A DNA stretch of 36,550 nucleotides from a virus. The stretch is taken from the IMG/VR virus record IMGVR_UViG_3300042466_000653, positions 1 to 36,550 of that record; one strand, written 5' to 3'. Made by a program: the position numbers and the translations under genes. This document shows positions 1 through 27,175 of the stretch, piece after piece; the stretch's first letter is position 1; every line of letters starts with the position of its first letter. The notes below the pieces were generated by a model that did not search any database, was not told the origin of the DNA, and worked only from the letters and a program-made list of their open reading frames with translations.

Positions 1-1918
1 ATAGTTCCCATTTCAAATCCACATTATATATGTCAGATTTTTCCAATTTTGAGTTACCCAATATTTGTGCGTTTCTTACAAAATCATAATAAGCAAAATT
101 AGCTACTTCTCTAAATTCAGGTCTTGCCAATGTTTTACTTAATGAGAATCTATATTTTACTTTATCTAAATTATATGAAAGGTTTAATGATGGTAAAAGG
201 TCTAAATACTCTCTATTCACATTTACTTTCTGTCCACTAAAATCTGCAGTATTAACATTGAATAGATTATACTCACCTCTTAACCCTGTATTTAGTTTCC
301 ACTTACCCCATTCGTTTTCATACATTGAGTAAAGAGACCCTAAATCAAAATCAGCAGTGTATCTATCGGTATTGTTTGTTATCTCATCTAACATATCGGT
401 TGAAAGGTATCTGAATATTCTTGCATTAAATCCTCTAATCTTTTTTAGATAACCCCCACCAACTTTAATATTACCAAATGATTTGTTGATGTTACCATTA
501 AAAGAGTTTTCATCCATCACACTCCAAAAACGATATGTATCTCTCCATGCAGTAGCATAAGGTTCGTTCACACCTAATGATTTTGTAATTGGATTTACTC
601 TATAATCGGGTTGTTCTCTGAATATGAAATTATATCCTAAGTTGAAATCCCAATCTTTAAGTTTACCATCAAATTGAGAATTGATGACAATGTTATTAAT
701 ATGATTGGATGAATTACTTAAAACATTTTGAACATTATCAAAGTTATCACCATTACGGGTTAAGTAGGTATCATCGGTTTGATAGTTTACTAATGTTTTC
801 CAGCTATATCTATTCTCACCCAAATAAGTTAAGTTTAATAAACCATTTGTGGATAATCTTTTTGTATATAAAATATCTTTATAATCGTATGCTAATTCAG
901 TTGATGATTGGTAATCCTTTCTTTCAATATTATTTAGTGTGAATGAGTTTCTTACAGTTGAACTAAATAAGGAATTGAATTTACCTTTCGTATAACCAAA
1001 TGAAAGGCCGCCGTTTAAGTTTGGATTGGATGTAAAAGATTCTTCCAATGGATTACCAAATTGCTTTGTAAATAATCTCTTATCACCATTTCCACTAATA
1101 CGATATTTGTAAGTTGAAGGGAATGTGGAAGGGAATTCGGTAGCTTGAACTAACTTGAAACCTTTCGAAGTTGAAACCGAACCCCAACCACTTCCCAATG
1201 AGATATTGAAGAAATTATCCGATACTTCCTTTGTTGTAATTTGAACCAACCCACCACTCCAATCACCTGGTTGATTTGCTGATGCTGATTTAGAAACTAT
1301 AATATTATCAATTAGTGCTGTTGGGATTATATCAAATGAAAATGCTCTCCTATCAGGTTCGGTTGATGGTAGTATGGTTTTATTTAAGATAGCTGAATTG
1401 TATCTATCTGCCAATCCTCTTACTAATACAAACTTATCGTTTTGTATAGTTACACCACTTACTCTTTTAAGTGCATCACCTACATTTCTATCGGGTGTTT
1501 TTTTAATGAATTCTATGGATACCCCATCGGATACTACATTACTATTTCGGATTGTTCTAACTACTGCTACATCAGTTACTTTTTGATTTGCTGCTCTAAC
1601 AACGACTTCTGATAATTGCTTTGTATCATCTAAAAATATAATATCAAATGTAGTATCTGATATTAAGTTTATTTGTGTTGTATAGGTATTATATCCAACA
1701 TAAGATGCTTTGATTTTATATACACCTAATTTTAGATTGATTTTGTATTCAGCGTTTTCATTAGAAATTGTAGAAAACTTATTACCATTCACATCTTCAA
1801 ATGTAATATGTGAAAAATATATTTTTTCGGTTTTGGATTTTGTTTCTCCACTTAATTGGGAGGTTTGAGAAAATGCTACAAATGGAAATAGTAACAAAAT
1901 AAAAAAGAAACGGGCCAT
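1..1918 (-). CDS. TonB-dependent outer-membrane receptor (C-terminus cut by window edge)
   Basis: Translating the minus strand from the ATG at 1918 gives about 639 codons with no stop to the left edge, so the C-terminus is missing. Residues 1-18 are a signal peptide ending in AFSQ. Residues about 30-100 form a carboxypeptidase-regulatory-like beta-sandwich (GVYKIKASYVGYNTYTTQ), typical of Bacteroidota receptors. LSEVVVRA (about 102-109) opens the plug domain, with VGDALKRVSGV at 146-156, VRGLADRYN at 166-174 and the plug end SGGLVQITTKE at 221-231. Beyond that come alternating aromatic barrel strands, including the common LARPEFRE segment. Such receptors import siderophores, vitamins or glycans using TonB energy; the substrate is not readable here. 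No SusD-like partner is in the window. The family call is firm. Its presence beside T4-like phage genes is the surprise, and neither codon use nor base composition looks different from its neighbours. Confidence 0.93.
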   Translation of the reverse strand, partial: MARFFFILLLFPFVAFSQTSQLSGETKSKTEKIYFSHITFEDVNGNKFSTISNENAEYKINLKLGVYKIKASYVGYNTYTTQINLISDTTFDIIFLDDTKQLSEVVVRAANQKVTDVAVVRTIRNSNVVSDGVSIEFIKKTPDRNVGDALKRVSGVTIQNDKFVLVRGLADRYNSAILNKTILPSTEPDRRAFSFDIIPTALIDNIIVSKSASANQPGDWSGGLVQITTKEVSDNFFNISLGSGWGSVSTSKGFKLVQATEFPSTFPSTYKYRISGNGDKRLFTKQFGNPLEESFTSNPNLNGGLSFGYTKGKFNSLFSSTVRNSFTLNNIERKDYQSSTELAYDYKDILYTKRLSTNGLLNLTYLGENRYSWKTLVNYQTDDTYLTRNGDNFDNVQNVLSNSSNHINNIVINSQFDGKLKDWDFNLGYNFIFREQPDYRVNPITKSLGVNEPYATAWRDTYRFWSVMDENSFNGNINKSFGNIKVGGGYLKKIRGFNARIFRYLSTDMLDEITNNTDRYTADFDLGSLYSMYENEWGKWKLNTGLRGEYNLFNVNTADFSGQKVNVNREYLDLLPSLNLSYNLDKVKYRFSLSKTLARPEFREVANFAYYDFVRNAQILGNSKLEKSDIYNVDLKWEL

Positions 1919-2000
1919 AAATTATTTAAGTTAGTTCCTCAATAATTATGCTCTCGCTTCTTTTAATAGGTTAATTCAATATTAACAAATTATTATCATA
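1919..2000 (-). promoter_or_regulatory. Intergenic leader of the TonB receptor gene with a small dyad
   Basis: This 82-base gap lies between the end of the cargo-protein run and the receptor start. It contains a perfect 6-bp inverted repeat, GTTAAT-N5-ATTAAC, at 1970-1986, the only notable symmetry. A purine-rich GAGGAA lies roughly 15-20 bases before the ATG, farther than usual for a Shine-Dalgarno. The nearest promoter-like string is an imperfect TAATTTG near 1991. The gap may hold the receptor promoter and an operator, but AT-rich DNA gives such dyads by chance. Confidence 0.2.
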
Positions 2001-2702
2001 TTACCACTTTCTACAAGACCAATAATTTGCTTTTGTTCTTGGCCCCGGTGAATCACAATTCATTCTTGCTCTAAATGATTTTCTAGCAGCAGGATTATCT
2101 TTCTTAATTACCATTCCCTTTTGACCAAAGTTTACTTTAATAACTTTACCTGTCTTAGGATTCTTTACATATACTTTAAACTTCTTAACATCACCTTGCA
2201 TTGGTTTGCCTAACTTAACTTCTCTACCTTTGTATTCTGCTTCATAAACACAATTACAATTTGCTTCTTTTAGTTCGGTTTTATATCCTTTTAAATAATT
2301 TAAGAAATCCTCCTCATCATCATCCTCTACATCCAATTCATCGTACTCATCTGAATTATCGTATCCACATTTATGACAAGTATACGGGTCTTCTCCCCCA
2401 TCTTCTAAATCCCAATCCCAACCACACTCTGCACATTTTATTGTATCAGTTTCTACACCTTCTTTAATACTTCTTTTTTGTTGAATTATTTGTTGTATTT
2501 GTGAGAATATACTTTGTATATCTTTGTCTAATTGTTTTTCATCCGCACTCATTGGGGATTCTATATCCATATTAGAATACAGTTTTTTCTTTTTAGCAAT
2601 TAGAACATCTACTTTTTTAATTAAATCGTGTCTTACCTTATCTAAATCTTTTATAATATCAGATGCGGTTGCTTCGTTTAATATTTTCTTTAACTTTATC
2701 AT
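2001..2702 (-). CDS. Leader-tagged candidate internal head protein with zinc ribbon
   Basis: A 233-residue protein starting MIKLKKILNE, a leader shared with the next two upstream genes. In T4 a 10-residue N-terminal capsid-targeting sequence (MKTYQEFIAE) sends internal proteins into the prohead and is cut by gp21 after a hydrophobic-X-Glu site. This leader has the same length and ends L-N-E. After it come a lysine-rich helical stretch (about 12-80), a CxxC...CxxC zinc ribbon (CAECGWDW and CHKCGYD, about 90-115), an acidic run, and a basic C-terminal domain ending in FRARMNCDSPGPRTKANYWSCRKW-like residues (about 210-233), with conserved Cys, Trp and Arg. I recall similar tails in marine T4-like phage virion proteins but cannot confirm that. 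The start overlaps the previous stop by ATGA. Function is inferred only: a packaged or injected protein. Confidence 0.75.
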   Translation of the reverse strand: MIKLKKILNEATASDIIKDLDKVRHDLIKKVDVLIAKKKKLYSNMDIESPMSADEKQLDKDIQSIFSQIQQIIQQKRSIKEGVETDTIKCAECGWDWDLEDGGEDPYTCHKCGYDNSDEYDELDVEDDDEEDFLNYLKGYKTELKEANCNCVYEAEYKGREVKLGKPMQGDVKKFKVYVKNPKTGKVIKVNFGQKGMVIKKDNPAARKSFRARMNCDSPGPRTKANYWSCRKW

Positions 2703-2716
2703 TTCTTTTGTTTATT
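2677..2716 (-). repeat. 40-bp direct repeat, copy 1 (gene-seam repeat)
   Basis: Bases 2677-2716 are identical to 3138-3177. The repeat spans the junction between two genes: the last codons of the upstream gene (Asn-Lys-Gln-Lys-Lys-stop), the overlapping ATGA, and the first codons of the next gene encoding MIKLKKILN. A diverged third form of the leader part lies at about 3542-3567. Perfect nucleotide identity, including third positions, points to recent duplication or recombination and not just selection on the peptide. Confidence 0.9.
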
Positions 2717-3163
2717 GTTGGTTTTAACATTAGGATTGGTTAATACCACATAATCTCCAGATTTACTAACATCCCAACCATTTAAGTTTTTTTTCAAATA
2801 TACATCATACAACTTTGCACGTCTTAAATCTGTATCAAAGTTTTTAGCAGGACTATATTGTAATTTTTCTGGGTTCTTTTTACTTATAAAATCCTTTATT
2901 ATTTTTACAATAGTAGCCATTACAGAATACATTTCACCACTATTAATTACTTCATCTCCGTTTTTAGAACCAATTGTTGAAAATGATATGTCCCAAGCAT
3001 CCGATTTACTGATATATTTAAAAATGATATAATAGGGTATTTTTTTTTCTTTTGTTAAAAACATATATTGGTATTCATTCTTACCACTAATTGTTAATAA
3101 AAAATTAAATGGTTTTGCAGATGAATCACCTATTTCATTTAATATTTTCTTTAACTTTATCAT
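2699..3163 (-). CDS. Leader-tagged candidate internal head protein
   Basis: A 154-residue protein with the leader MIKLKKILNE, then a globular region of unknown fold rich in aromatic and beta-prone residues (FNFLLTISGKNEYQYMFL), and a C-terminal segment KLYDVYLKKNLNGWDVSKSG ending in KQKK. The leader matches the length and L-X-E end expected of a T4-type capsid-targeting peptide, so cleavage after Glu10 is predicted. The gene is coupled by a 4-base overlap to both neighbours, and its first and last codons lie in the two copies of the 40-bp repeat. No catalytic motif is recognised. I do not know its mature function; one inference is a protein delivered into the host with the DNA. Confidence 0.7.
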   Translation of the reverse strand: MIKLKKILNEIGDSSAKPFNFLLTISGKNEYQYMFLTKEKKIPYYIIFKYISKSDAWDISFSTIGSKNGDEVINSGEMYSVMATIVKIIKDFISKKNPEKLQYSPAKNFDTDLRRAKLYDVYLKKNLNGWDVSKSGDYVVLTNPNVKTNNKQKK

Positions 3164-3177
3164 TTCTTTTGTTTATT
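3138..3177 (-). repeat. 40-bp direct repeat, copy 2 (gene-seam repeat)
   Basis: Identical to 2677-2716 over 40 bases. It covers the end of the gene at 3160-3567 (encoding NKQKK-stop) and the start of the gene at 2699-3163 (encoding MIKLKKILN). Recombination between the two copies would cleanly remove or swap one whole reading frame, because both ends of the intervening gene fall inside repeats. Confidence 0.9.
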
Positions 3178-3567
3178 TAATATCTTAAATATAAAATCGG
3201 TCTCATTCCAAATTGTTTTTAAACTTTCTTTACTTATTAATTGATAGAGTTGAGCATCTGTAATTTTTCCTAATTTGCGTAATTGAATACCAAAATGTTT
3301 AATCAATACAATAGGATACTTATCAGACCCGTATTTTTTCTGCTTTATTTCTTTAGCAGTATTTTGTTTTGCAAGTTTTAGTTTATCGTATATCTGTTGC
3401 TTTAATCCAGGTTCGGATGGTTCATTATCCTCATCGTATCTTTCTAAGTATCTATCCGCAAATGCTTGACCAAAAGCATTTAATAATTTATTATACTCTT
3501 TTTGCACATCAGCTGGATACTTTTTTAAGTCCTTTACTTCATTTAATATATCCTTTAACTTAATCAT
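3160..3567 (-). CDS. Leader-tagged candidate internal head protein
   Basis: A 135-residue protein when started at the ATG at 3567, which gives MIKLKDILNE, matching its two neighbours; an in-frame start six codons earlier would hide the leader and overlap the CsgG-like gene. The stop of that gene (3569-3571) is one base away. The body is mostly charged helix (YPADVQKEYNKLLNAFGQAF, ADRYLERYDEDNEP) and ends KILNKQKK. It has no recognisable enzyme motif. By analogy with T4 internal proteins I infer prohead targeting and cleavage after Glu10. It is the most diverged of the three leaders at the DNA level. Confidence 0.7.
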   Translation of the reverse strand: MIKLKDILNEVKDLKKYPADVQKEYNKLLNAFGQAFADRYLERYDEDNEPSEPGLKQQIYDKLKLAKQNTAKEIKQKKYGSDKYPIVLIKHFGIQLRKLGKITDAQLYQLISKESLKTIWNETDFIFKILNKQKK

Positions 3568-3568
3568 A

Positions 3569-4288
3569 TTATTTTTCAAATACACCTTTTTTAACCATTC
3601 TGCCTAAGATTCTTGCACATGCTATATCCAATGCTTTCTTTGTAGATGTTCCGATTGTTGATTGGTTAAATTTAACCTCATCCACAGTTGCATCTGAAAG
3701 GAGTGATAATTCTCTTGTTGTAACAGCTTCACCCAATCCACTTGCTGCTATAATTTCTCCTGTCTCTGCATTTGTAAATCTAACTTGTAAACCCAAACGA
3801 GTTACTACTTTATTCTTAACCCCATTACTTAAATTTACGGTCTCATCTTCGGATACTGAAAAATCATATACTTCAATTTCTACAAAATAATGTGCTAATC
3901 TAATCTTTCCTCTACCATCTAACTTATCTTGTGAAATACCAGATTGAGAAGCCTGAAATTGCTTTACCATGCGATTCTTAATTTCTGTCTTATCCTCCGT
4001 AAACGTAAACCTGTTAAGATTCTCCAGATATTCCATCGTGATATTAGCCACACCCAAACCCACTTTCTTTTCTTTGAGTTCAGGATATTGCTCATAAACC
4101 TCATCACCAATACCACATTTGAGAATCTGTATTGGGATTTGTTTGCCTTCATAATCTAAATATTGACTAATGTCTACTTTTGTTTCGAATGAAGCTTTGT
4201 AATTTTCTGTCTTTGTTGTTCCCACAGTTTGGGCAATGGCAACATTGCTTAGTAAAACACCAAGCAAGAATACTAATAATTGTTTCAT
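3569..4288 (-). CDS. CsgG-like exported protein
   Basis: A 239-residue protein with a clear Sec signal peptide (residues 1-20, ending VAIAQ) and no lipobox Cys. The mature part contains the pattern of CsgG-family proteins: a YFVEIEVYDFSVSE strand, a VTRLGLQVRFTNAETGEIIAA strand pair in which a modification or transport domain usually sits, GLGEAVTTRE, and a C-terminal helix with serial Ala (TKKALDIACARILGRMV). CsgG forms the outer-membrane pore that exports curli subunits in enterobacteria. I recall CsgG-like genes reported in marine T4-like phages. Here the nearest neighbours are the leader-tagged cargo genes and a lipase. The fold assignment is moderate; pore formation is not shown, since lipidation is absent. 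Confidence 0.65.
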   Translation of the reverse strand: MKQLLVFLLGVLLSNVAIAQTVGTTKTENYKASFETKVDISQYLDYEGKQIPIQILKCGIGDEVYEQYPELKEKKVGLGVANITMEYLENLNRFTFTEDKTEIKNRMVKQFQASQSGISQDKLDGRGKIRLAHYFVEIEVYDFSVSEDETVNLSNGVKNKVVTRLGLQVRFTNAETGEIIAASGLGEAVTTRELSLLSDATVDEVKFNQSTIGTSTKKALDIACARILGRMVKKGVFEK

Positions 4289-4297: not shown

Positions 4298-5041
4298 TTA
4301 TGGATTCCATTTATTTAATGCACTTATATAATTATTTGTCATATGGTCTTTAACAGTCTTGCCAGAGAAAACCGCTTTAAGGTATTCACCTACTCTTTGC
4401 CAATCAACCATCCATTCTTTTATTTTACCCTCATCATCAATCCTTAATTCAGTATTAACATGATGATATCCAATATTTGGTGCACGGGTTACCACATCTA
4501 AATTATGAACTATTCTCAATGATTCTATTGGTGATTTATCAAAGTTTTGTTTAAATATTTTATTTCCAACTCTTGGACTACCAATTGTACAACATATAAT
4601 TTTATTTGATTTGTAAATTGAATAAATCTCATAAGCACATAACGTAGAAACTGCAGCACCCAAACTATGGCCACAAACAATAATATTATCTATTGAATGT
4701 TCTTGACCTAAGTTTTTAAGTGCAACATCTAATGCCTGATATGTTTTATCTTTAACTGTTTGCCACGATGATTTGAAACCAATATGAACTTTTTCACCTT
4801 CTCCAATGAAAGGAACTTTATCAATTGATGCATCATTTTGGAAATCTTTTTTAGATGAACTTCCTCTCCAAACAATATAAATGGATTTATCTTTTGTGGC
4901 AACGAATCCCTGCGTATCGGATTTTTTATCCTCAACCCACTTAACCAATTTCAAACCCAATGATTTAAAATCAATATCTTTTTGGTCAGAATAAACTTTT
5001 TCAGTTAAACCAACATTATATAATATTTCTTCTTTTGTCAT
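4298..5041 (-). CDS. Class 3 (alpha/beta hydrolase) lipase
   Basis: A 247-residue protein from the ATG at 5041; a GTG ten codons earlier would run into the upstream gene. The lipase_3 landmarks appear in order: IVWRGSSSKKDF (about 56-67), the VHIGFKSSW motif (about 85-93), the nucleophile elbow GHSLG with Ser126, SPRVGN (155-160), the acid LDVVTRAP with Asp182, and HH followed by the likely catalytic His233 in KDHMTNNY. The triad is complete, so an active esterase or phospholipase is likely. There is no signal peptide, so it would stay in the cytoplasm until membrane failure or holin action. It follows a cluster of small membrane proteins, which suggests a role in membrane damage or lysis; the substrate is unknown. 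Confidence 0.88.
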   Translation of the reverse strand: MTKEEILYNVGLTEKVYSDQKDIDFKSLGLKLVKWVEDKKSDTQGFVATKDKSIYIVWRGSSSKKDFQNDASIDKVPFIGEGEKVHIGFKSSWQTVKDKTYQALDVALKNLGQEHSIDNIIVCGHSLGAAVSTLCAYEIYSIYKSNKIICCTIGSPRVGNKIFKQNFDKSPIESLRIVHNLDVVTRAPNIGYHHVNTELRIDDEGKIKEWMVDWQRVGEYLKAVFSGKTVKDHMTNNYISALNKWNP

Positions 5042-7669: not shown

Positions 7670-8011
7670 TTATTTGGTTATTATTGTTGTTTTACTTATT
7701 TCTTTTTTAGTAACATCTTCTAATAACAAATATAAATATTGAGATTGTATTGAATTCGTATAAATCTTCTTTACATTTTCTCCATTCTGTCCAATAAACC
7801 TTTCTCTACTAACTACTTGTCCACTTTCTTTATCAATTAAAGTTAGTGTGTATGTTCCAGCTGATGGTAAATCAAAGAAAATAGATTGTCCATTTACTAC
7901 TTTACTTTCCTTTACACTAAATATCTTTTCAATAGGTATAGTTGGGGTTGGTAGTTCTGGTTTAGTACACCCTACCAATAAAATCAATGATATCAATATT
8001 ATTTTTTTCAT
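7670..8011 (-). CDS. Exported lipoprotein (paralog of the downstream gene)
   Basis: A 113-residue protein with a lipobox LLVGC (Cys15). The mature sequence starts with a Pro/Thr-rich linker and then a beta-sandwich pattern (GQSIFFDLPSAGTYTLTLID, VVSRERFIGQ, KKIYTNSIQSQYLYLLL). It shares the spaced motif VVS(K/R)...G(D/E)N...K(V/I)YTN with the gene at 7288. The start overlaps the stop of the outer-membrane barrel gene by one base, so translation is coupled. A likely role is as an outer-membrane accessory lipoprotein of that barrel; this is inferred from position only. Confidence 0.78.
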   Translation of the reverse strand: MKKIILISLILLVGCTKPELPTPTIPIEKIFSVKESKVVNGQSIFFDLPSAGTYTLTLIDKESGQVVSRERFIGQNGENVKKIYTNSIQSQYLYLLLEDVTKKEISKTTIITK

Positions 8012-8904
8012 TAGAATTGAAAGTTTGTTCCTATCATAAATAGGATTGGGTTACTCTTTTTATATCCAACTGATTCACTTAATTTATCCCAAGTTGTATT
8101 ATATCTGATGTTAGTGTTTAATACAAATCTTTTAGTTACCTTCCAATCAATAGATGCACCATAATATAAGTCCAAATTGAAATCATCTACATATGCTAAA
8201 TCCGATTCAGTGCCATCTTTGAATACTTTATATACATCACTCATTGCAAATACCTGTGGTGATATGTTTACTCTCTTTGTTTTGAATGTATATGTGTACA
8301 TTGCCATACCTCTATAACTCAATTCACTTGATGCCGGTATTTGTGGATATATTAAATCTTTAAAATCACCATTCTCATCAATTGTATATTTTCCTTCCCA
8401 CTCACCATCATAAGTTCCCCAAAATGATTTTGATGCAATTACACTATAACCAAATGTTCCCCATTTTTTAGTTCTGAATACATCGATGAATGATAGTGTA
8501 ATATCTTTTTGGAAATCAAAATCTGTTGAATAAAATGATTGTAATGTGGTTGTTCTTTTTTCGGTATTTTTACTAAGACCGTATCCCACACCATAATAAT
8601 TCCATATAGGATTTATTGATGCTGCAAATGTATGCCCCCACTGTCCATTCATAGATGATTTATTGTAACCCAAATTAAGAGTAGTTGATATTTGCTTTCC
8701 AATAATACCTACCGATAAGTTTGAAGATGAAAGTACATCTTTTGAAAAATTAACATACGATTGTAATATACCCACATCGTTCCAATCATCACTTTCTCCA
8801 AATAATTCTTTTGGTGATAATTGTAATGTATCAGGTTTTACGATTTGTGCGTTTGTAACAAATGTAGTCAAAATTAGTGACAGAATTATTATTAGTTTTT
8901 TCAT
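8011..8904 (-). CDS. Outer-membrane beta-barrel protein
   Basis: A 297-residue protein with a signal peptide (MKKLIIILSLILTTFVTNAQ). The mature part is a series of amphipathic strands separated by short turns (SVGIIGKQISTTLNLGYNKS, WNYYGVGYGLSK, GYSVIASKSFWGT, YRGMAMYTYTFKT, FVLNTNIRYNTTWDKL). It ends ILFMIGTNFQF with a terminal Phe, the usual C-terminal signature of outer-membrane barrels. Roughly 10-14 strands fit the length. It is translationally coupled to the large dockerin/cohesin protein upstream and to a lipoprotein downstream. Possible roles are an export pore or anchor for the secreted pair, or a modified surface receptor. The family is not recognised. Confidence 0.8.
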   Translation of the reverse strand: MKKLIIILSLILTTFVTNAQIVKPDTLQLSPKELFGESDDWNDVGILQSYVNFSKDVLSSSNLSVGIIGKQISTTLNLGYNKSSMNGQWGHTFAASINPIWNYYGVGYGLSKNTEKRTTTLQSFYSTDFDFQKDITLSFIDVFRTKKWGTFGYSVIASKSFWGTYDGEWEGKYTIDENGDFKDLIYPQIPASSELSYRGMAMYTYTFKTKRVNISPQVFAMSDVYKVFKDGTESDLAYVDDFNLDLYYGASIDWKVTKRFVLNTNIRYNTTWDKLSESVGYKKSNPILFMIGTNFQF

Positions 8905-11189
8905 TAGTTCATTTTTACTTTTAATTGTGTTCCATCTTTATTAACTGCATCAGTATTTGATATTGATGTTAATCCCAATATACCATTTAATCCTATTGAT
9001 GGTAAGAATGTTATTTTGTATTCAGTTGTTTTATCTAATATAGTTGAACCATCCGTTATCAATGAACCCAATGTTAGATATGTACCTCTATCAGTTCCAA
9101 AATTAGTAGGTGTTCCTTTTGTAATGAATTCCACCTTTTCAAATTTTAGAGCGGTATTATCGTAGTTTAAATTGAATTGAGTACCTACTAATTCTTGTTG
9201 TAATGGGTCTACTGATATCGTTACTATCAATTTACCACCAACATTTTCACCCATTAGATATGCATTAATTTGATTAGAAACTGAATTAGTTGATAAACTC
9301 ATTGTTCTTATTGAATTGGTTGTAACACTACTTACACTTTGTTGTGCCGAATGTGAAAGATTTACATCACCCAACCAAGTTACATTTATATTATATGTGT
9401 TATTCAAACTACCCAATGTAAATGGAATTAAGTTACGAGTTGAATTAAATTGAGTTGCCCAATTTGATGTTGTTATCCCATCGTAATCAGATTTGTTATA
9501 TAATTTCATCAAATAAGTTAATGCCGTAGATTGTGTAAGTGGTTCAACTCCTGTTAAATGTTGTAATAGCTTGTATGTATCACTTTCGTTAAATACACCA
9601 TTACCATCCACATCTGCGTTCAAATACTGAATAGCATTTGTTAATCCCAATCCACTTTGATTTCCAAATATACCTTTATCTGCCAATTCTTTAAATGCCA
9701 AATATACATCGGATACCCCTACTATATTACTATATAGTGTGTTTAGTTCCGTTTGGTTTGAATGGGTTAATTCTATTCCATGTGATTTATATACCATTGC
9801 CGGTGAAAAACTAAATTCGGCTCTTGTTCCATACCAACCATCTTGTAATCTTAATTGAGCTTGAAATGTTGATGAAGTTATTTTGGTTGTTAAATTACCG
9901 GGCATTATATATGTTTTCCAAAATCCACTTACATTATTAATGGTAACCGGTCCATCGTATATATCAAATAATTTAATCGATGTTATATCGTTTGGAGATA
10001 CTCCCGTTCCATCAAATTCTCTTTCATCTATTAACAATTGATGTCCACCTAAAGTTACATTATATGGATTTATTATTGCCCATTCAGTTTGTCCTGCAGA
10101 TGTCAGTGCTTTATATCCATTTGCGGTTTTAGCAGTATCTAATAAACTTGTCAAATCAACTTTACCTAAACCACTTAATTGTTTAGCAGTTCCGTTTACT
10201 ATATTCCAAGTATTATTTGTATATGTGTATCCTTTTGCTGAAAATTTAGTTTCATCTACATTTGTTCCAAAATCAATATTGAATGCTGCTCTTAATACTT
10301 CTCCGTTTGAGTGTGTTACCGAATTTGTATAAAACTCCGTAAATGTAGCATCATCGGGATTAGACCAAGTTCCATATTCAATTATATATGGATTACTCCA
10401 ATTGTTTGATAAATCATTCCATGTTGATGCACCACCCCAGTTTGTTACTGCATAATCCTCACCATGATTATATCCATTTGGTTCACCACCTGCCCAGTTG
10501 TTATACACACCGGCAATGTTTCCTGCAGTTTGTCCATTTGAGGTTTTCATTACAGTTCCCTTTTCAGGCCCTGCATCAATTACCCATCTTCCATCTATAA
10601 CCTCATCAGTTGCTGCAAACCATACATTCGCTTGAGGAACATTGGCAAATATAAAAGCATTTTCTGATGCTGATGTTATTGTTACCAAATATCCAGTCTG
10701 TCCCTTGAATGTTGTTAATAAGGATGCTGCTCTTGCTCCGGTGTATGTTGTACCGGCGGTTACGGGTTTGTAAAAATGGCCATTAACACCATTGTAATAA
10801 AATCCAACGGGATTAACAGTTGCTGCTACCGATATTTGAACATTGCCAACTACTGAACCTGTATTTATTTTTAGGGATTCTAATGCAGTATTAATACTAG
10901 CCATTGTACCTGTTACCACCAAACGAGTTTTATTACCTGTTAAAGTAAATCCACTTGCCGCGGTTAAGCCGGTTGTTGTAATTAAGTAAAATGTAGTATT
11001 TGTTGATGGGTTGATTAAACTGATTGAAGCTAGTAATGTAGATGTTGAAGTAAATCCACTTAATTGAAATCCACTTCCATCTTGTGCGGTAGTGGATGGT
11101 ATAAACGATTTAGAGTCCGGAGCAGATACACTCTGTCCGAACCCTAAAAATGATATAAATAAGAATAATGTAACTAATAAGTGTTTCAT
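8904..11189 (-). CDS. Large secreted protein: C-type-lectin-like, dockerin-like and cohesin-like domains
   Basis: A 761-residue protein from the ATG at 11189 (a TTG nine bases earlier is less likely). Residues 1-19 are a signal peptide ending GFGQ. Residues about 25-125 are a beta-rich, Ser/Thr-rich region. Residues about 135-273 match a C-type-lectin-like domain (GYLVTITSASENAFI; the WAGGEPNG motif at 232-239; WNDLSNNWSNPYIIEY). At 492-547 is a dockerin-like module with a calcium loop DVDGNGVFNESD (526-537). Residues about 640-761 form a cohesin-like sandwich (GTQFNLNYDNTALKFEKVEF). The dockerin-to-end architecture is shared with the downstream paralog at 11191-12852. It is likely displayed at the cell surface, binding glycan through the lectin-like part; self-assembly by dockerin-cohesin contact is inferred. 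Confidence 0.8.
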   Translation of the reverse strand: MKHLLVTLFLFISFLGFGQSVSAPDSKSFIPSTTAQDGSGFQLSGFTSTSTLLASISLINPSTNTTFYLITTTGLTAASGFTLTGNKTRLVVTGTMASINTALESLKINTGSVVGNVQISVAATVNPVGFYYNGVNGHFYKPVTAGTTYTGARAASLLTTFKGQTGYLVTITSASENAFIFANVPQANVWFAATDEVIDGRWVIDAGPEKGTVMKTSNGQTAGNIAGVYNNWAGGEPNGYNHGEDYAVTNWGGASTWNDLSNNWSNPYIIEYGTWSNPDDATFTEFYTNSVTHSNGEVLRAAFNIDFGTNVDETKFSAKGYTYTNNTWNIVNGTAKQLSGLGKVDLTSLLDTAKTANGYKALTSAGQTEWAIINPYNVTLGGHQLLIDEREFDGTGVSPNDITSIKLFDIYDGPVTINNVSGFWKTYIMPGNLTTKITSSTFQAQLRLQDGWYGTRAEFSFSPAMVYKSHGIELTHSNQTELNTLYSNIVGVSDVYLAFKELADKGIFGNQSGLGLTNAIQYLNADVDGNGVFNESDTYKLLQHLTGVEPLTQSTALTYLMKLYNKSDYDGITTSNWATQFNSTRNLIPFTLGSLNNTYNINVTWLGDVNLSHSAQQSVSSVTTNSIRTMSLSTNSVSNQINAYLMGENVGGKLIVTISVDPLQQELVGTQFNLNYDNTALKFEKVEFITKGTPTNFGTDRGTYLTLGSLITDGSTILDKTTEYKITFLPSIGLNGILGLTSISNTDAVNKDGTQLKVKMN

Positions 11190-11190
11190 A

Positions 11191-12852
11191 TTATTCAACT
11201 ATTAAGTTGATTTTGTTACCTTTAGCATCTACTGCATCTGATAATATAAAGTAAAATAATCCCGCAGTATTACTTAAAGTTTCTTTTGGTGTGAATATTA
11301 ATTTATATGGAGTACCTACTTTAATTCTTGCAGTTTTTAATTGGTCAATAGAACCAAATGTTAATCTACCATTATCATGTGTTGAGAAGTTAGTAATTGT
11401 ACTTCCTGCATCGAATATTACATTATCCAAAGTTAATTTAGATTCGTCATAATTCATTACTACTTGTAAACCTGCTAATTCTGCTTTTGTTAAAGTTGTA
11501 GTTAATACTACTTTACCACCTTCTAATGTAGATGTAATACCCAATTTTGCCGTTTCTACCGCTAAAGTTTGATAAGCCATTGGTGCAGTACTCATAGATT
11601 TAATTGAGTTTGTACCTTTATCATTTACTGAATTAGTAAATTGTCCTGCAGTTATTTTGGTTGCAATTACTGCTGGGTCTGATGAATGTGACCAGTTCAA
11701 ATCCCCGCCCCATGCGAATACTGCATATACTTCTTTTATTGGAGTATCAATTAGTACTCTATTCTTTACAACACCATCTAACCAACTTTGATTTAATAAA
11801 CCACTATACCATCTTACTGATGTTGAAGTTGAAGTAGGAATCATTGCGGTTGTTGACATGTTTTGTCCCATTACGTGTGCAAATAATGCATATGAATCTG
11901 CTTCACCAAATGGACCATTACCTAAACTAACTTTACCAACCTTCTTTTCTAATGCAGGTAATGTAAAATAATTTGTAGTTCCACTAATATCAGTTTGAGA
12001 GTGTCCTAAAAATGCTTTGTAAGCATCTGATACAGTTACGATGTTATTCATCCAACTTTTTTGGAATGCTCCTCCAACAAATACACCAACCGAATCACCC
12101 ACTTTAACTTGAGTTGTGAAAAGTGCTTCACCACTTGCATCTAATGGTAATTGTGCGATGGGTTGTTGTGACCAATCGATGTCCCCACTACCATCCGTTT
12201 TCAATTTCATCAATTGAACACTATGGTCAGTAATAGTATATCCTTGTGGATATAAAACTTTTACTTTAAATTGAGATGTATTACCCGTTACACCTGTTAT
12301 AGATGAGAATCCACCACCAGTAATAGCTCCAACGTTTCCACCAACAGTATCAGTACCAGTTGCCAAATCTATTTTGAATATGTTTGAATAACTATTTTGG
12401 TCTTTTAAGATATATTTTTGAGTAGCTATTAATCCACTAATAGATTGGTCTGCTCTTTGAACTGTTAATTGTCCTACATTCCAATCTGCATTTACTGCAT
12501 ATGCCCAAGGGGTTAACCCATATTGTGCATAAATATCATTATCATTTGCTCCTGCGTTTGGAGTAAACTTATAGTTAGTCCAACCGGTATAAAATGTTTG
12601 TGCAGATGTACCTTGATTAAATGTAGTTGAAACATATGTTAATGCTTTATTGTTAAATTGATATCTAAACCAAAGATAACGAGGATTAACAATAGTCGGA
12701 CCTTTAGTTAAATTGTACTTAACTGTCAAAGTATCACCAACTTTTAACCCCGTTTCTGGCGTCATTGATTGACCAATTTTTAATTGTGCATTAGACGTAA
12801 ATGCGATAGTGGATAGTATTAATATCCCTAAAAATGTTAATAGTTTTTTCAT
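11191..12852 (-). CDS. Secreted cohesin/dockerin-like protein (paralog of 8904-11189)
   Basis: A 553-residue protein with a signal peptide (1-23, ending TSNAQ). Residues about 24-165 look like a first cohesin-like sandwich (LKVGDTLTVKYNLT; FRYQFNNKALTYV). Residues 273-329 are dockerin-like (VSDAYKAFLGHSQ...ADSYALFAHVMG), aligning with the neighbour's VSDVYLAFKE...SDTYKLLQHLTG, but the calcium loop is degenerate (SLGNGPFGEADS). Then come WGGDLNWSHS, the NSIKSMS segment and a C-terminal cohesin-like domain (about 430-553; GLQVVMNYDESKLTLDNVIF). The protein is exported and probably surface-associated. The order is the same as in the neighbour's C-terminal third, so the two arose by duplication. 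It is coupled to the anchored protein upstream by an ATGA overlap. Confidence 0.78.
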   Translation of the reverse strand: MKKLLTFLGILILSTIAFTSNAQLKIGQSMTPETGLKVGDTLTVKYNLTKGPTIVNPRYLWFRYQFNNKALTYVSTTFNQGTSAQTFYTGWTNYKFTPNAGANDNDIYAQYGLTPWAYAVNADWNVGQLTVQRADQSISGLIATQKYILKDQNSYSNIFKIDLATGTDTVGGNVGAITGGGFSSITGVTGNTSQFKVKVLYPQGYTITDHSVQLMKLKTDGSGDIDWSQQPIAQLPLDASGEALFTTQVKVGDSVGVFVGGAFQKSWMNNIVTVSDAYKAFLGHSQTDISGTTNYFTLPALEKKVGKVSLGNGPFGEADSYALFAHVMGQNMSTTAMIPTSTSTSVRWYSGLLNQSWLDGVVKNRVLIDTPIKEVYAVFAWGGDLNWSHSSDPAVIATKITAGQFTNSVNDKGTNSIKSMSTAPMAYQTLAVETAKLGITSTLEGGKVVLTTTLTKAELAGLQVVMNYDESKLTLDNVIFDAGSTITNFSTHDNGRLTFGSIDQLKTARIKVGTPYKLIFTPKETLSNTAGLFYFILSDAVDAKGNKINLIVE

Positions 12853-13514
12853 TGTTGTTGTTTCTCAATTTGTTTTACTAATGATTCACATGCTTTTTTA
12901 ATAGCATTACTTAAACTTTGTTGATTGAATTTACCACCCTCATCAACTATTAGTGTAGACATTGAGACTTCAGATGAACCCGCTTCAACAACAATATCTT
13001 TTCCTTTTTTGCCTTCTTTGAAAAGATTTGCTTTTAAGCGAACGACAACTTCATCTTCATTTTTATGAAATACTGAAATGTTTGTTTTAGTTGATAGGAC
13101 ATCTAAATAAACGATTTCAACTTTTAATCTATATTTGGCATCTTCGGATAATCCATATCCCTTTTCTTGTAAAAACTCTTCTAAGATATTTTTTACACCA
13201 AAAGCAAGATTACGATTTCCTGCTAACTTACCAATTTTAACCTGATTTTCTACGGATTCAACAAAGATATGGTCTTCGGCATCATACCATATATTTTCTG
13301 GATTATTTTTGAATGTACCATCGATTCTCCATTCAATCCAATTTACAATATTTCTTTGTAATTCATGTTTACCAGAAAATTCTAAATAAACAAAGAACAT
13401 TTGGAAAGATATGGCGAATATAATCCATAACCCTACTAACGAAAGAAAAGCTGTGAATGCTTTTTCTTTTAACGAATCTACATTAATGTGTAAACTTTTA
13501 ATTACCTGTTTCAT
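12849..13514 (-). CDS. Membrane-anchored periplasmic protein heading the exported operon
   Basis: A 221-residue protein with one uncleaved-looking membrane helix at about 19-46 (FTAFLSLVGLWIIFAISFQM), then a periplasmic region. The soluble part has alternating strands (YRLKVEIVYLDVLSTKTNIS, DEVVVRLKANLFKEGKKGKD, IVVEAGSSEVSMSTL) and a C-terminal helix rich in Ala and Lys (NAIKKACESLVKQIEKQQQ). This strand-strand-Ala-helix order recalls CsgG or FlgT-like periplasmic proteins, as in the gene at 3569, but similarity is weak. It is the first gene of the operon that includes the two secreted paralogs, the barrel and the lipoproteins, and it could link that surface set to the inner membrane. Confidence 0.65.
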   Translation of the reverse strand: MKQVIKSLHINVDSLKEKAFTAFLSLVGLWIIFAISFQMFFVYLEFSGKHELQRNIVNWIEWRIDGTFKNNPENIWYDAEDHIFVESVENQVKIGKLAGNRNLAFGVKNILEEFLQEKGYGLSEDAKYRLKVEIVYLDVLSTKTNISVFHKNEDEVVVRLKANLFKEGKKGKDIVVEAGSSEVSMSTLIVDEGGKFNQQSLSNAIKKACESLVKQIEKQQQ

Positions 13515-13600: not shown

Positions 13601-13627
13601 ACAAAAAACCTCATTGTTAAATGAGGT
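13601..13627 (-). terminator. Rho-independent terminator ending the glycan locus
   Basis: On the minus strand an 8-bp perfect stem ACCTCATT/AATGAGGT with the 4-base loop TAAC is followed by TTTTTG and more T. The stop codon TAA of the glycosyltransferase gene at 13617 lies in the loop region, so the hairpin doubles as the end of the coding sequence. It marks the boundary between the glycan locus and the exported-protein operon. Confidence 0.82.
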
Positions 13628-14510
13628 CTTGTAATTCTTGATTAAAATTTTCTTCGGATATTTTTTTAAATTCATCTCGTTTATCAAAAGCACTGAGATG
13701 ATTTAATAAATGAGAATTGTTTCGGTATTTATAATTTTCACAAACTACTAAATTTTTTATTTTAAATTGATAGATTTCCATATCAGTAGTTGTCATCAGT
13801 TTTTCTGCAGCCCACATTATAAATGTATCTTCAAATCCATAATGACTAAATGTTTCCGGTATTCCAATTCTTCGTAATAATTGGCCGGATAAACAAGTAA
13901 ACCAACCTCCATTAAATTTATATTTTGGTTGATTATCTATTACATTATTAACTATTTCTATTGTAACCTCTCCCTTAACTCCACAATCTATATATGGATT
14001 ATTTGTAAGATGATAATCCAATGGTTTAGTTAAATACTTTTCATTAACTAAACAATCCCAAGTGGAATCACCAACTCTAACAATCTCCGGTGTTATGATA
14101 GTATATGGATATACATCATTAATTGCTATTAGGGTTTCCTCCATATAAGATAAAGTCTTTTCATCAAATATGATATCACTATCTAACCAAATATAATAAT
14201 CTGCAGTTTCTTGAGTTTCTAATGTATGTTTTCTATGAGATACACACCCCTTTATATCTTCAGATGCAGTGAAGTATTTTGCACACCAATCACTATGTGC
14301 TGATAGTTTTAATAATTTATCAATGAAATAACTTTTTGGTAACGCAGAACGTTTCCAATCTACCATATCATTCGCTATACACATACTTATATCCAATACC
14401 CATTCGTGTTTTCCACTTAGGTATTTTGATGCACGTCTTAACTGAGTTAGTAGAGTTTCTAAATCATCAATTTCATGTGGTAAAGTAAATATTGATATTA
14501 CTATCCTCAT
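13617..14510 (-). CDS. GT-A-type glycosyltransferase
   Basis: A 297-residue protein. N-terminal MRIVISIFTLPHEIDDLETL opens a nucleotide-binding fold. YYIWLDSDIIFDEKTL (about 108-123) carries the D-S-D metal/UDP motif. KFNGGWFTCLSG is followed by HYGFEDTFIMWAA (about 220-235), with the Glu-Asp pair typical of the acceptor-side catalytic region in GT2/GT7-like enzymes. It is homologous along its whole length to the next gene upstream (LDTDIIFD, GLDDTYLMWGA), so the two are tandem paralogs. It is the last gene of the glycan locus, and its stop lies in the terminator hairpin. Donor and acceptor are unknown. Confidence 0.8.
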   Translation of the reverse strand: MRIVISIFTLPHEIDDLETLLTQLRRASKYLSGKHEWVLDISMCIANDMVDWKRSALPKSYFIDKLLKLSAHSDWCAKYFTASEDIKGCVSHRKHTLETQETADYYIWLDSDIIFDEKTLSYMEETLIAINDVYPYTIITPEIVRVGDSTWDCLVNEKYLTKPLDYHLTNNPYIDCGVKGEVTIEIVNNVIDNQPKYKFNGGWFTCLSGQLLRRIGIPETFSHYGFEDTFIMWAAEKLMTTTDMEIYQFKIKNLVVCENYKYRNNSHLLNHLSAFDKRDEFKKISEENFNQELQDLI

Positions 14511-15400
14511 TTGTTATTTAATATATTTTGTAAACCGATATAAAATAATTCTTCGTTATACTTTTTATACTCCTCACGTTTATCTATAAATTGTATTTGG
14601 TCTTTATAAGTGGTGATTCTATCGTAATAATTTTCACACACAACTGTATTTTTTAATTTGAATTGTTTTATGGTAGGGTCTTGCAATATATTTGCACCCC
14701 ACATTAAGTAAGTATCATCCAACCCATAGTGTCCGTAGTTTTCTGGAAATGGTATAACCTTCATTAATTCTTTTGATATCAATGCGAACCACCCACCACC
14801 AAATTTCATATATGGTTGGTGATGGACATTATTATGTACCTCCTCTAAGTGTGGGTCTCCATAAATAGTGGCATCAATATATGGATTATTAGTTGCCTGA
14901 TATCCTATTGGTTTATTTATAAATCTTTCATTTACTAAACAATCCCATGTGGAATCCCATTGCCTTACGATTTCTGGAATAGATACAAATTTAGTAAATC
15001 CTGCATATTCAATTACATCTATTGAATTGATTGAATGTGCTAGGGTTTGTGGGTCAAAGATTATATCAGTATCTAACCACAAATAATAATTTGAATCAGA
15101 ATACGATGCTAATCTTCGCATTGAGGTACATCCATTTATAGTAGTTGTAGTTTCAAACGTACCATTAGATGCCCAATCGGTTAATGGTTTTAATCCTAAA
15201 AACTTTTCAGTACATTCTTCTTTGGTAACACTACTTTTACTCCAATCAATTATCTCATCAGACACACACATAACAATATTAAATTTAATATTATCACATT
15301 GTTCTTTTGTTAGATAATCCTTTCCAATATACAATCGATTTAATGATTTTTCTAAATCATCAATATCGGTGGGTGATATCCAAATTACAATTTCTATCAT
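14507..15400 (-). CDS. GT-A-type glycosyltransferase (tandem paralog)
   Basis: A 297-residue protein started at the ATG at 15400 (MIEIVIWISPTDIDDLE), which aligns with the paralog's start; a start 13 codons upstream would run into the previous gene. Motifs: YYLWLDTDIIFDPQT, STWDCLVNERFINKP and NNPYID (both shared word for word or nearly so with the gene at 13617), and HYGLDDTYLMWGA. The equal length and conserved spacing indicate duplication. It overlaps the upstream gene by ATGA. It probably adds a related sugar in the same glycan; specificity cannot be read. Confidence 0.8.
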   Translation of the reverse strand: MIEIVIWISPTDIDDLEKSLNRLYIGKDYLTKEQCDNIKFNIVMCVSDEIIDWSKSSVTKEECTEKFLGLKPLTDWASNGTFETTTTINGCTSMRRLASYSDSNYYLWLDTDIIFDPQTLAHSINSIDVIEYAGFTKFVSIPEIVRQWDSTWDCLVNERFINKPIGYQATNNPYIDATIYGDPHLEEVHNNVHHQPYMKFGGGWFALISKELMKVIPFPENYGHYGLDDTYLMWGANILQDPTIKQFKLKNTVVCENYYDRITTYKDQIQFIDKREEYKKYNEELFYIGLQNILNNK

Positions 15401-15888
15401 ACTAATTCTGCAACTTTTGCCATTCTGCCAAACACACATATTGTATTTTGTCCAACCAATGGTAAGTTATCAGTTAACATAACCAATTGGTCTTTATCTA
15501 TTATATATTTGTATTCATCTTTTATCTGAACTGATTCACCCTTACTCTTTTTGTTTTTAATATAATTGATAAATGTGTTTGGATTACTACCCCATGTGAT
15601 ATTACCAATTCTAATAATATTATAGTTTTCAAAATTAGATTTGATAAGCAATTCCATTCTTCTTTTATGTTGTAAGTATTTGTTACTACCTACCTTTTCA
15701 ATATCATCAACTGAAATGGAACTAAAATAGAATAAACAGTTTGTTCTATCTTGTTTATCTAACAATTCTATTTCACGCATAAATTCAGATTCTCTAATTT
15801 CATTACTATTGGAAACTCCAGATACAAAGAATGTTGCCCCTTCTCTATCGTTTAAGACAGATGCTATATCACCTCTACCTATAATCAT
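15397..15888 (-). CDS. Shortened NAD-epimerase/SDR-like protein
   Basis: A 163-residue protein from the ATG at 15888, which overlaps the preceding stop as TAATG. The N-terminus MIIGRGDIASVLNDREGATFF resembles a Rossmann start but lacks the full GxxGxxG. CLFYFSSISV supplies the SDR Ser, NKYLQHKRRME gives the YxxxK pair, and YNIIRIGNITWGSNPNTFIN matches the region after the active site in extended SDRs. At roughly half the length of a normal epimerase (about 300), it is either a divergent minimal SDR or a decayed sugar-nucleotide enzyme. Its reading frame is intact and coupled on both sides, which argues it is still used. Confidence 0.6.
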   Translation of the reverse strand: MIIGRGDIASVLNDREGATFFVSGVSNSNEIRESEFMREIELLDKQDRTNCLFYFSSISVDDIEKVGSNKYLQHKRRMELLIKSNFENYNIIRIGNITWGSNPNTFINYIKNKKSKGESVQIKDEYKYIIDKDQLVMLTDNLPLVGQNTICVFGRMAKVAELV

Positions 15889-16742
15889 TATTCGTATTTT
15901 TTTGTTATGATTCGATTCCATTCTGGAATTCTATCGTATTGGTGTACCATTGCGAATGGAATACCCGTACTTGTTTTTACAATGTCCCCATCCATAATCG
16001 GTGATGGTTCTAATAGGTTTTCACCATACTGACTGACCATTCTTTGGTCAACAGTCGTTCCACATTGTGCAGCCCAACCCTCTTCAGAATTTGTAAACCT
16101 AGTCAATTCTTTATATGGAGAAAATGATAATGCTACATTTACTGCTGCTTGGTCAGGTGTTGCCGATGGACTTCCTTGACACATTAAGTACACATTTAAA
16201 AATAATTCAGACATTGTTTTCCAATCACCTGATATTGTTCCTGCATTTACTGTTATATTTTCTTTACATCTATCATACACAATCTCACCAAAACTTTCAA
16301 TCATATTACCCCTACCCCATACCTCATCCTTATACTTAACACTTTCTCTACCTGCATTTATTTTATAATCACCTAAGTTTTTTTCTAACCATTCTGATGG
16401 GTTATATTGAAATACTACATCCTTTGGGTCTAATGCCATTACATACCTTAACCCACCGGGAGTTTCTTGTGCTAATTGATTTAATACAAGATAATAATGT
16501 AAATGTCTATCGACGGTTACTATAAAATTATCTCTATAAATGTATCGTTGGTTTGTTTCATCTTTACCAAACCCAACAACATCCCATCCTCTTTTTTTTA
16601 ATTCATCGACCGTTGAAAATGGAACATTATAAACTATCATAACTTTATGACCGGTGAATCCACTTCTATCAATTGAGTTTACAAATAGTTTAATATTTTC
16701 AAATGTATAATTTGTGATACATCCTATTACTACATCTTTCAT
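15888..16742 (-). CDS. Glycosyltransferase-like protein
   Basis: A 284-residue protein. It begins MKDVVIGCITNYTFENIKLF with a nucleotide-sugar-transferase-like fold; YVMALDPKDVVFQYNPSEW (about 102-120) carries the D-P-K-D metal-binding equivalent; NITVNAGTISGDWKTM and CQGSPSATPDQAAVN match the conserved mid-region of GT-A enzymes that act with a disordered loop; the end is FAMVHQYDRIPEWNRIITKK. This end motif (VHQYDR) is familiar from a class of short bacterial and phage glycosyltransferases. It is coupled to the UDP-galactopyranose mutase gene upstream by an ATGA overlap, so it may use UDP-galactofuranose; that is inference. Confidence 0.72.
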   Translation of the reverse strand: MKDVVIGCITNYTFENIKLFVNSIDRSGFTGHKVMIVYNVPFSTVDELKKRGWDVVGFGKDETNQRYIYRDNFIVTVDRHLHYYLVLNQLAQETPGGLRYVMALDPKDVVFQYNPSEWLEKNLGDYKINAGRESVKYKDEVWGRGNMIESFGEIVYDRCKENITVNAGTISGDWKTMSELFLNVYLMCQGSPSATPDQAAVNVALSFSPYKELTRFTNSEEGWAAQCGTTVDQRMVSQYGENLLEPSPIMDGDIVKTSTGIPFAMVHQYDRIPEWNRIITKKYE

Positions 16743-17821
16743 ATTATTTCGTTAACTTTTTTTAATGCCGATTCAATTACTTGATGCATATCATAGTATT
16801 TGTATTCTGCCAATCTACCTCCAAAGATAACATTTTTTTCTGAGTTTACCAAACTTTTATACAAATTATATTTCTCATTGTTTTCAGAATCATTTACTGG
16901 ATAATAAGGTTCGGTGGTTTTAGCATCATATTCTATTGGATATTCATGTGTAACCCATGTGGTATTACTATCTCCAAATTCAAAATGTTTATGTTCTATT
17001 GTTCTGGTATATGGAGTTTCTGAATCCGTATAGTTCATTATAGCACAACCTTGATAATTTGGAATATCCAATTGGTTATGTTCAAATTTAGTTGTTTTAT
17101 ATTCTAATTCACCAAATTTGTAATTATAAAATTTATCAATTGGGCCGGTGTAGATTACTTTTTTATATTCGGGTAGTTCATCGGTAAAATAATCCGTATT
17201 TAATTTAACATCAATACCTTCTAATAGTTTTTCAAATATTTGAGTATACCCCCCAATTGGAATACCTTGATATTTGTCATTAAAATAATTATTATCGTAT
17301 GTAAATCTAACAGGTAATCTTTTAATAATTTCCTTTGGTAATTCCGTTGCCGGTTTTCTCCATTGTTTTTCGGTATATCCTTTTATCAATTTGGTGTAAA
17401 CATCCTTACCTACAAATTTAATTGCTTGTTCTTCTAAGTTAGTAGGTTCGGTAACATCATCACTTTGTTTCTGAATCATTGTCTTTGCTTCATCCGGAGT
17501 AGTGACCCCCCACATTTGGGAAAACGTCCACATATTAAATGGTAACGAATACAATTCTCCTTTATAATTTGCAACGGGTGATAATCTAAAATGATTAAAT
17601 TTAACAAACTGATTTATCCATTTCCAAACTTCTTCGTTTGATGTGTGGAATATATGTGGGCCATAATCATGCACATTTATACCATCCCTATTTGATGTAT
17701 GACAATTTCCACCAATATGATTTCTATTATCAATTACACAAACTTTATAACCCTTTTTATTTAGTTCATATGCACATATAGAACCAAAGAAACCAGAACC
17801 AACTATTAAATAATCGTACAT
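16739..17821 (-). CDS. glf: UDP-galactopyranose mutase
   Basis: A 360-residue flavoprotein that converts UDP-galactopyranose to UDP-galactofuranose. The FAD-binding motif is YLIVGSGFFGSICAYELNKK (about 4-23), followed by NHIGGNCHT, DYGPHIFHTSNEEVW and FVKFNHFRLSPVANYKGELY, all hallmark Glf segments. The substrate-side motifs GYTEKQWRKPATELP and RLPVRFTYDNNYFND are present, with YQGIPIGGYTQIFE, and the end has IFGGRLAEYKYYDMHQVIESAL. The length matches the family (about 360-390). Because galactofuranose is rare and mostly found in microbial surface glycans, its presence identifies one likely donor made by the locus. It lies directly downstream of a GT90-type gene with no gap. Confidence 0.95.
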   Translation of the reverse strand: MYDYLIVGSGFFGSICAYELNKKGYKVCVIDNRNHIGGNCHTSNRDGINVHDYGPHIFHTSNEEVWKWINQFVKFNHFRLSPVANYKGELYSLPFNMWTFSQMWGVTTPDEAKTMIQKQSDDVTEPTNLEEQAIKFVGKDVYTKLIKGYTEKQWRKPATELPKEIIKRLPVRFTYDNNYFNDKYQGIPIGGYTQIFEKLLEGIDVKLNTDYFTDELPEYKKVIYTGPIDKFYNYKFGELEYKTTKFEHNQLDIPNYQGCAIMNYTDSETPYTRTIEHKHFEFGDSNTTWVTHEYPIEYDAKTTEPYYPVNDSENNEKYNLYKSLVNSEKNVIFGGRLAEYKYYDMHQVIESALKKVNEII

Positions 17822-18667
17822 TTATTTTATAATTTTTTTAAATACTTCTACAATATGGTTATTTATATTTTCTTTTGTAAATGTTTTTTCTGCAAACTCA
17901 TATAAATTATTTGATAATTTATCATATAGTTCTGGATTATTTTCTACATATTCGAGTTTTTCAATTAAATTAGATAAATCTCGTTTAACCATAATACAAT
18001 TTTCACCATCTACTAAACCATCCATCCAAAATTCTTGATAAGGTCTTTCATTTATAAACAAAACACGTTTAGTACAACATAAAAATTTTAATCTACCTGA
18101 CCACCCAACTCCTTCAATATCAATTAGATATTTGTATTTACAATGTTCTGCCAATGAAACAAAATTATTAGCTGTTAATTTTTCTGGATTATCTCTTATA
18201 AAATCAATCGCATTACATAATAGTAAGTTTGGATATTGAATAGCCAGTTGATTATACTTCATTCTTGTCGGTATATGTGAACCGATAGAACCAGACCAAA
18301 ATAGTTTATTTATGATTGGTATATTTTTCGCTTGTATTTTTATTTCATTTACTGTATTTTCAAAACTTTCTATGCCAATTTGTCTCCAACCATCAAATGT
18401 AAAACAAGGAATTGTTTTATATTTATCACTTGCGTGGGCGTAACTAAATCTATCATTATCAAGTTGGTCAGATGTATTGATTAGTATTTGTAACTTCTTA
18501 TTATGAAAAACTTCTTCATTTGATTTTAACCCATCTATTATAAGTTTTATTGTTGATGGATTTCTATCTTCATATCCACCATAATCATAAAAAGTAAAAA
18601 CATTTTCTACAAGACGTATTTCGAATGAATATCTTGGACCAGATTGGTTTATAATATTATATTCCAT
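17822..18667 (-). CDS. CAP10/GT90-type glycosyltransferase
   Basis: A 281-residue protein. The C-terminal half matches the CAP10-like (GT90) pattern: HCKYKYLIDIEGVGWSGRLK (about 192-211), FLCCTKRVLFINERPYQEFW, then VDGENCIMVKRDLSNLIEKLEY. These are the conserved donor-binding segments of that family, which includes LPS- and capsule-modifying xylosyl and glucosyl transferases. The N-terminal half (YGGYEDRNPSTIKL; WSGSIGSHIPTRMK) fits too. There is no membrane segment or signal peptide, so the protein is cytoplasmic. It abuts the mutase gene and the glycosyltransferase gene at 18668. Confidence 0.75.
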   Translation of the reverse strand: MEYNIINQSGPRYSFEIRLVENVFTFYDYGGYEDRNPSTIKLIIDGLKSNEEVFHNKKLQILINTSDQLDNDRFSYAHASDKYKTIPCFTFDGWRQIGIESFENTVNEIKIQAKNIPIINKLFWSGSIGSHIPTRMKYNQLAIQYPNLLLCNAIDFIRDNPEKLTANNFVSLAEHCKYKYLIDIEGVGWSGRLKFLCCTKRVLFINERPYQEFWMDGLVDGENCIMVKRDLSNLIEKLEYVENNPELYDKLSNNLYEFAEKTFTKENINNHIVEVFKKIIK

Positions 18668-19348: not shown

Positions 19349-19350
19349 AT

Positions 19351-21895: not shown

Positions 21896-21898
21896 AAC

Positions 21899-22501: not shown

Positions 22502-22503
22502 TT

Positions 22504-23175: not shown

Positions 23176-23199
23176 AATTTTTATTTTATATACTGAATA

Positions 23200-25435: not shown

Positions 25436-25436
25436 T

Positions 25437-26738: not shown

Positions 26739-26748
26739 ATTTTATTTT

Positions 26749-27174: not shown

Positions 27175-27175
27175 A

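Follow-up and report, generated by a model that had tools for sequence, protein, structure and literature searches.

A ten-residue leader of the form M-I-K-L-x-x-I-L-x-E opens three adjacent genes in the 36.5 kb IMG/VR record analyzed here (the whole stretch, hereafter the window), and we consider it very likely, judging from sequence, that this peptide is a capsid-targeting propeptide of the T4 type, carried by exchangeable cargo genes whose products are delivered with the DNA. All three genes are real open reading frames (ORFs) on the minus strand, transcribed in the order g3, g2, g1: g3 (3160-3567, 135 aa) starts with MIKLKDILNE (3538..3567), and both g2 (2699-3163, 154 aa) and g1 (2001-2702, 233 aa) start with MIKLKKILNE (3134..3163 and 2673..2702, respectively). 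Successive genes share a four-base ATGA stop/start overlap (3160..3163 for g3/g2 and 2699..2702 for g2/g1, minus strand) and their bodies are mutually unrelated in sequence, which bears out the first-pass annotation of three adjacent, coupled genes united by a common 10-residue leader; together they may constitute one local, translationally coupled cargo array.

Beyond the leaders, the three minus-strand bodies differ in how much can be said about them. The predicted cargo of g3 (3160..3537, 125 aa past the leader plus stop) had no Pfam, PHROG, or NCBIfam match in profile searches. The g2 body (2699..3133, 144 aa plus stop) matches the DUF6934 family (E = 4e-7, residues 28-128, about 2780-3082), and its predicted mature N terminus is IGDSSAKPF, with IG[DE] directly after Glu10 being common to g2 homologues; its structure model (mean pLDDT 73) gave as best structural match a weak GNAT-like fold (E = 1.5e-3, TM about 0.4), which we regard as a lead only. 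The g1 body (2001..2672, 223 aa plus stop) combines predicted long helices with a C-terminal phrog_7595 domain identified by PHROG profile match (2004..2240), a domain also present in cultured Pelagibacter, Roseobacter, Flavobacterium, and Methylophilales phages, and its structure model was poor (pLDDT 55). The zinc ribbon previously assigned to one of the genes is visible in g1 as a CxxC-x15-CxxC motif (C90, C93, C109, and C112; 2367..2435), but Pfam returned only a sub-threshold DZR match there (E = 0.038), and we therefore call the motif zinc-ribbon-like.

The leader is widespread among phages and restricted to them. A degenerate DNA scan for MIKLK[KDNE]ILNE found at least 120 stretches in IMG/VR, and among the matches listed nearly all were ORF starts with many different bodies; when 257 Gb of prokaryote genomes were scanned likewise there were 0 matches, as there were for a permuted tag scanned across IMG/VR. 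We collected 365 tagged proteins and compared them all against all, which gave 127 clusters of mutually unrelated bodies. The cargo is mostly encoded as separate genes of 60-450 aa, and tagged genes form 61 tandem runs, in which a -4 overlap is the commonest spacing and the longest run (in contig G030) comprises seven genes. Domains recognized among the bodies include NUDIX, Zeta toxin, ART-PolyVal, HD, RNase T, NT5C, ATP-grasp, lysozymes, and M23; some tagged bodies, namely lysozymes, cell-wall hydrolases, and a tRNA nucleotidyltransferase, are not obvious injected proteins and count against our interpretation. Among isolated phages, Microcystis phage Mel-JY01 has gp21 and gp23 as well as three tagged proteins, which start MIKLKSLLQE, MIKLKSLLKE, and MIKLMSLVTE. 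Our search of the open-access literature found no description of the leader family, and a literature search found no paper on Mel-JY01.

Because the search expression itself partly dictates the statistics for positions 4, 7, 8, and 10 of the 365 proteins, we relied on two unbiased sets, a scan with residues 1-8 fixed and residues 9 onward free, and homologues fetched by their bodies alone. The former yielded 94 distinct start-like ORFs, 80 of which have Glu10, compared with 9 of 34 for a permuted eight-residue control (p = 8e-10); position 9 is variable (N19, L18, K15, S8, T7) and positions 11-16 hold no shared residue. Homologues of the tagged kinase found only via the body carry the leader M-I-K-L-x-D-I-L-x-E, in which positions 5 and 9 vary, and remoter kinase homologues mostly have different leaders yet retain Glu at the same joint, mostly as x-L-x-E (for instance, MIPFILKE|GLYDPG in HTVC008M and MKTFAELQE|GVYDPN in Melnitz); g1 homologues found via the body behave similarly. 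Positions 4 and 7 are hydrophobic both in the window leaders and in homologues found via the body only, and the leaders as a whole have L, I, V, or M at residue 8, narrowed to L or I at the unbiased body-found joints, with residues 8-10 conforming to the [LI]-x-E consensus of gp21. The residues kept in the leader (4, 7, 8, and 10) are also the important ones in the capsid-targeting sequence of T4 IPIII, where targeting depends on residues 4 and 7 and processing on residues 8 and 10; gp21 cuts after L/I-X-E (PMC9026906).

Two further N-terminal motifs were observed alongside the leader. The motif NMRRFGTKNL recurs after or overlapping the leader end in several proteins (L221, L219, L215, and L230), and is possibly another targeting propeptide. 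In a Flavobacterium immuto phage (L122), a repeated N terminus like MENFDLKKFLVENKLT occurs on gp076, gp077, and gp092, two of which lie near the capsid locus; such MENFDLKKFLVENKLT-like N termini may be that phage's own leader family.

The window carries no head genes (no capsid, no protease), and its close relatives of 63 and 47 kb have neither gp21 nor gp23. The cognate gp21-like protease anticipated by the first-pass annotation is thus missing from the window itself but present in longer relatives: of the 10 leader-bearing contigs that reach 100 kb or more, 9 have gp21 (PF03420; a weak and split match in one of them, G070), against 2 of 7 control contigs, a small comparison (p = 0.018). 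Of 25 leader contigs examined for gp23, mostly fragments, 8 have it. One relative of 213 kb (G050), whose clamp loader is 72% identical to that of the window, has gp21 at the contig edge along with gp22-like and gp23 genes, and the window phage therefore very probably belongs to a T4-like group. The anticipated L-X-E site was also found in the capsid protein: when T4 gp23 was aligned with seven relatives, E65, which we take to be the T4 gp23 cleavage residue, was invariant, and the relatives carry [LIV]-x-E|[AG] there. In a further contig (G021), the gp23 frame (L178) is broken by stops (1 TAG, 2 TAA), perhaps reflecting an intron or an assembly error. Leader genes also occur in the prohead locus itself, with 12 of 36 lying between portal and capsid genes, compared to 89 of 1604 ORFs (nine genomes; pooled p = 2e-7, a value that overstates independence because genomes with prohead-locus leader genes often share homologous ones). 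Several leader genes are close to gp21 within the portal-protease-scaffold-capsid locus, and three of the nine genomes have a prohead locus without a leader gene.

The Bacteroidota host suggested by the first-pass annotation is plausible, though unproven, given that the nearest cultured capsids include Flavobacterium phages and that the window contains a TonB receptor gene. That ORF (2-1918) encodes a TonB-dependent outer-membrane receptor (Plug, OMP_b-brl_3, and CarbopepD_reg_2), a Bacteroidota-style host gene adjoining the array. Other features of the window, likewise on the minus strand, are two secreted-looking proteins (3569-4288 and 12849-13514), both CsgG/LPP20-like by eye and the second with a weak Lipoprotein_16 match; a class 3 lipase just upstream of the array region (4298-5038; Lipase_3, E = 2e-27); a run of large secreted or outer-membrane-like proteins with one weak Cohesin match (8011-12852); and a dense block that by eye is glycosyltransferase-like and devoted to sugar metabolism, with radical SAM/SPASM and GroES (Cpn10) genes (13617-33458).

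T4 and two cyanophages provide a yardstick for a more general pattern, M..phi..phi[LIVMF].E. Among annotated T4 starts it fits exactly IPII, IPIII, gp24, and Alt, all of them head or internal proteins, with a fifth match in dexA.1 falling off the annotated start; IPI was missed. At internal methionines, used as a control in eight phage genomes or contigs, only 0-0.5% match. The virion proteome of the T4-like cyanophage S-CREM2 has been published (PMC10665884). Six of its 219 CDS fit the pattern and five of these six are virion proteins detected by mass spectrometry (MS), i.e., 5 of 52 MS-detected proteins versus 1 of 167 other CDS (p = 0.003), with the caveat that the proteome could include co-purified proteins. 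The five are gp6 (SAM hydrolase, MKDFDSFLEE), gp13 (MKDLHSFLTE), gp14 (kinase, VKRFDAFLTE), gp136 (MQTFSMFFSE), and gp154 (cytidylyltransferase, MKNFSSFLTE), whose leaders are like those of the window clade in architecture but unlike them in sequence. The replicate in S-SCSM1 was weak because only one of four pattern matches was a flagged virion protein (NMNAT, MKSFLQFLKE; not significant), and the unflagged matches include RecA. We found no virion proteome for the leader clade in the literature, and the paper on the Flavobacterium immuto phages contains none for those phages. Taken as a whole, the earlier suggestion of a T4-type capsid-targeting leader with a gp21 L-x-E site agrees with nearly every computational test (how residues are conserved, the occurrence of the protease in long relatives, the gp23 cleavage site as aligned, prohead-locus genes, T4, and S-CREM2), the S-SCSM1 result being the exception.

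Compared to known systems, the leader most closely recalls those of T4. Like IPII and IPIII (MKTYQEFIAE), it has 10 residues, hydrophobic positions 4, 7, and 8, Glu10, unrelated bodies, several genes per locus, and a gp21-type protease in the phage group; unlike them, it has other letters (MIKLxxILxE), forms longer coupled arrays (up to seven genes), and sits on many enzyme bodies instead of the small inhibitors of T4, and packaging here is predicted. The propeptide of T4 gp24 (MAKINELLRE), which is annotated as gp21-cleaved, shares the form M-x-K-[LI]-x-x-[LI]-L-x-E, with near-identical spacing and residues to the window leaders, although gp24 is a capsid vertex protein and not injected cargo. 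According to the T4 record note, the Alt ADP-ribosyltransferase is carried in the capsid and enters with the DNA, and ART-like bodies, one of them matching ART-PolyVal, carry the new leader, a likeness in domain type. In phiKZ and SPN3US, head propeptides are removed after Glu by a gp21-related protease, and these phages have many ejection proteins. A Glu at the leader's end and, in the long leader-bearing relatives, a gp21-type protease recur here, but the phiKZ-type motif S/A-x-E does not describe the leader, which has L/I-x-E. ART and similar domains in polyvalent proteins have also been proposed as phage-injected (Iyer et al. 2017, PMC5512222), and one tagged body matches Pfam ART-PolyVal; polyvalent proteins are single large multidomain polypeptides, however, whereas the tagged cargo is mostly one domain per separate gene, with one two-domain fusion.

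Alternatively, the shared start might be conserved as DNA or RNA, with the peptide incidental, if a recombination joint or a site of translational or RegA-like regulation had been copied before genes. The DNA of g1 and g2 is indeed near-identical over the leader and over 11 bases just upstream of the ATG (aaacaaaagaa), so that part of their local similarity reflects recent duplication or recombination. Furthermore, in a relative of 46,755 bp (G035) the segment comprising most of g2 and g3 (2714..3533) is absent: the relative aligns to window positions 1-2713 and from 3534 onward, and as the flanking matches overlap by 46 bp in the relative, the join falls inside the leader repeat. Across phages, however, all six Leu codons are in use at position 4 and the I, K, and E codons vary too; codons varying freely at fixed residues indicate selection on the leader as a peptide. 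The upstream sequence is not conserved across phages either, and conservation ends at Glu10 with position 9 free, leaving the nucleic-acid element a very slim chance of being the explanation. Leader repeats may instead serve a capsid-targeting peptide while doubling as homology for the loss or exchange of cargo genes. In a two-domain fusion in G030, an internal leader (MAKLMPMLRE) immediately precedes the g2-like domain. Cargo modules are likewise fused in the jumbo phage Atu_ph07: its gp053 (L570, 778 aa) has an ART-like segment at its start (judged by eye), a tagged-kinase domain, and a weakly matching g2-like domain, and lies in a gene cluster rich in MS-detected proteins.

Tandem arrangement and the nearly identical g1 and g2 leader DNA could also be taken to mean that one gene recently gave rise to all the leader genes and that their bodies have since diverged beyond recognition, an idea to which we give almost no credence as the bodies are distinct named families (NUDIX, Zeta toxin, HD, RNase T, lysozyme, M23, ATP-grasp, and NT5C). 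It is somewhat less far-fetched, though still quite unlikely, that the leader targets another virion part or compartment, such as the tail or baseplate, or tethers proteins to a membrane. The peptide does look amphipathic, and the tagged bodies include several that are peptidoglycan hydrolases or resemble tail-lysozyme or tape-measure families. Against this, the leader closes with the consensus of the gp21 head protease, leader genes are concentrated in the stretch from portal to capsid, and the T4 proteins that fit the general pattern are all head or internal ones. Two endolysins also occur in S-CREM2 virions, where they may be carried in the capsid according to the authors (PMC10665884), though they lack this leader. 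A Sec or lipoprotein signal was rejected on the peptide's composition alone, i.e., ten charged, amphipathic residues without a long hydrophobic core.

Under the capsid-targeting reading, leader residues 4 and 7 (with 8) would line the hydrophobic side of a short helix through which the protein docks on the prohead scaffold core, whereupon a gp21-type prohead protease would cut after L-x-E at residue 10. The mature body would stay inside the head with the DNA and enter the host at infection, where the cargo may act early in host takeover or counter-defense. A possible anti-defense role has its analogue in T4, whose Ip1-3 proteins inhibit the GmrSD restriction enzymes (PMC12373910). More broadly, we lean toward the view that T4-like phages of aquatic bacteria possess a modular delivery system, in which one interchangeable 10-residue head-targeting tag is placed on more than 100 unrelated families (ARTs, zeta-type kinases, Nudix, HD, peptidoglycan hydrolases, and unknowns) in coupled arrays, tag repeats act as cargo-exchange joints, and the injected set can be read from sequence. 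In T4, only a few internal proteins have been characterized, and finding the proteins that enter a cell with phage DNA normally takes virion proteomics on a cultured phage. A tag on more than 100 protein families offers a sequence handle for finding candidate delivered proteins. If our interpretation is true, metagenomic phage collections would become catalogues of candidate injected effectors, many without known function, whose targets (restriction, signaling, NAD-based, and toxin defenses) would be testable gene by gene.
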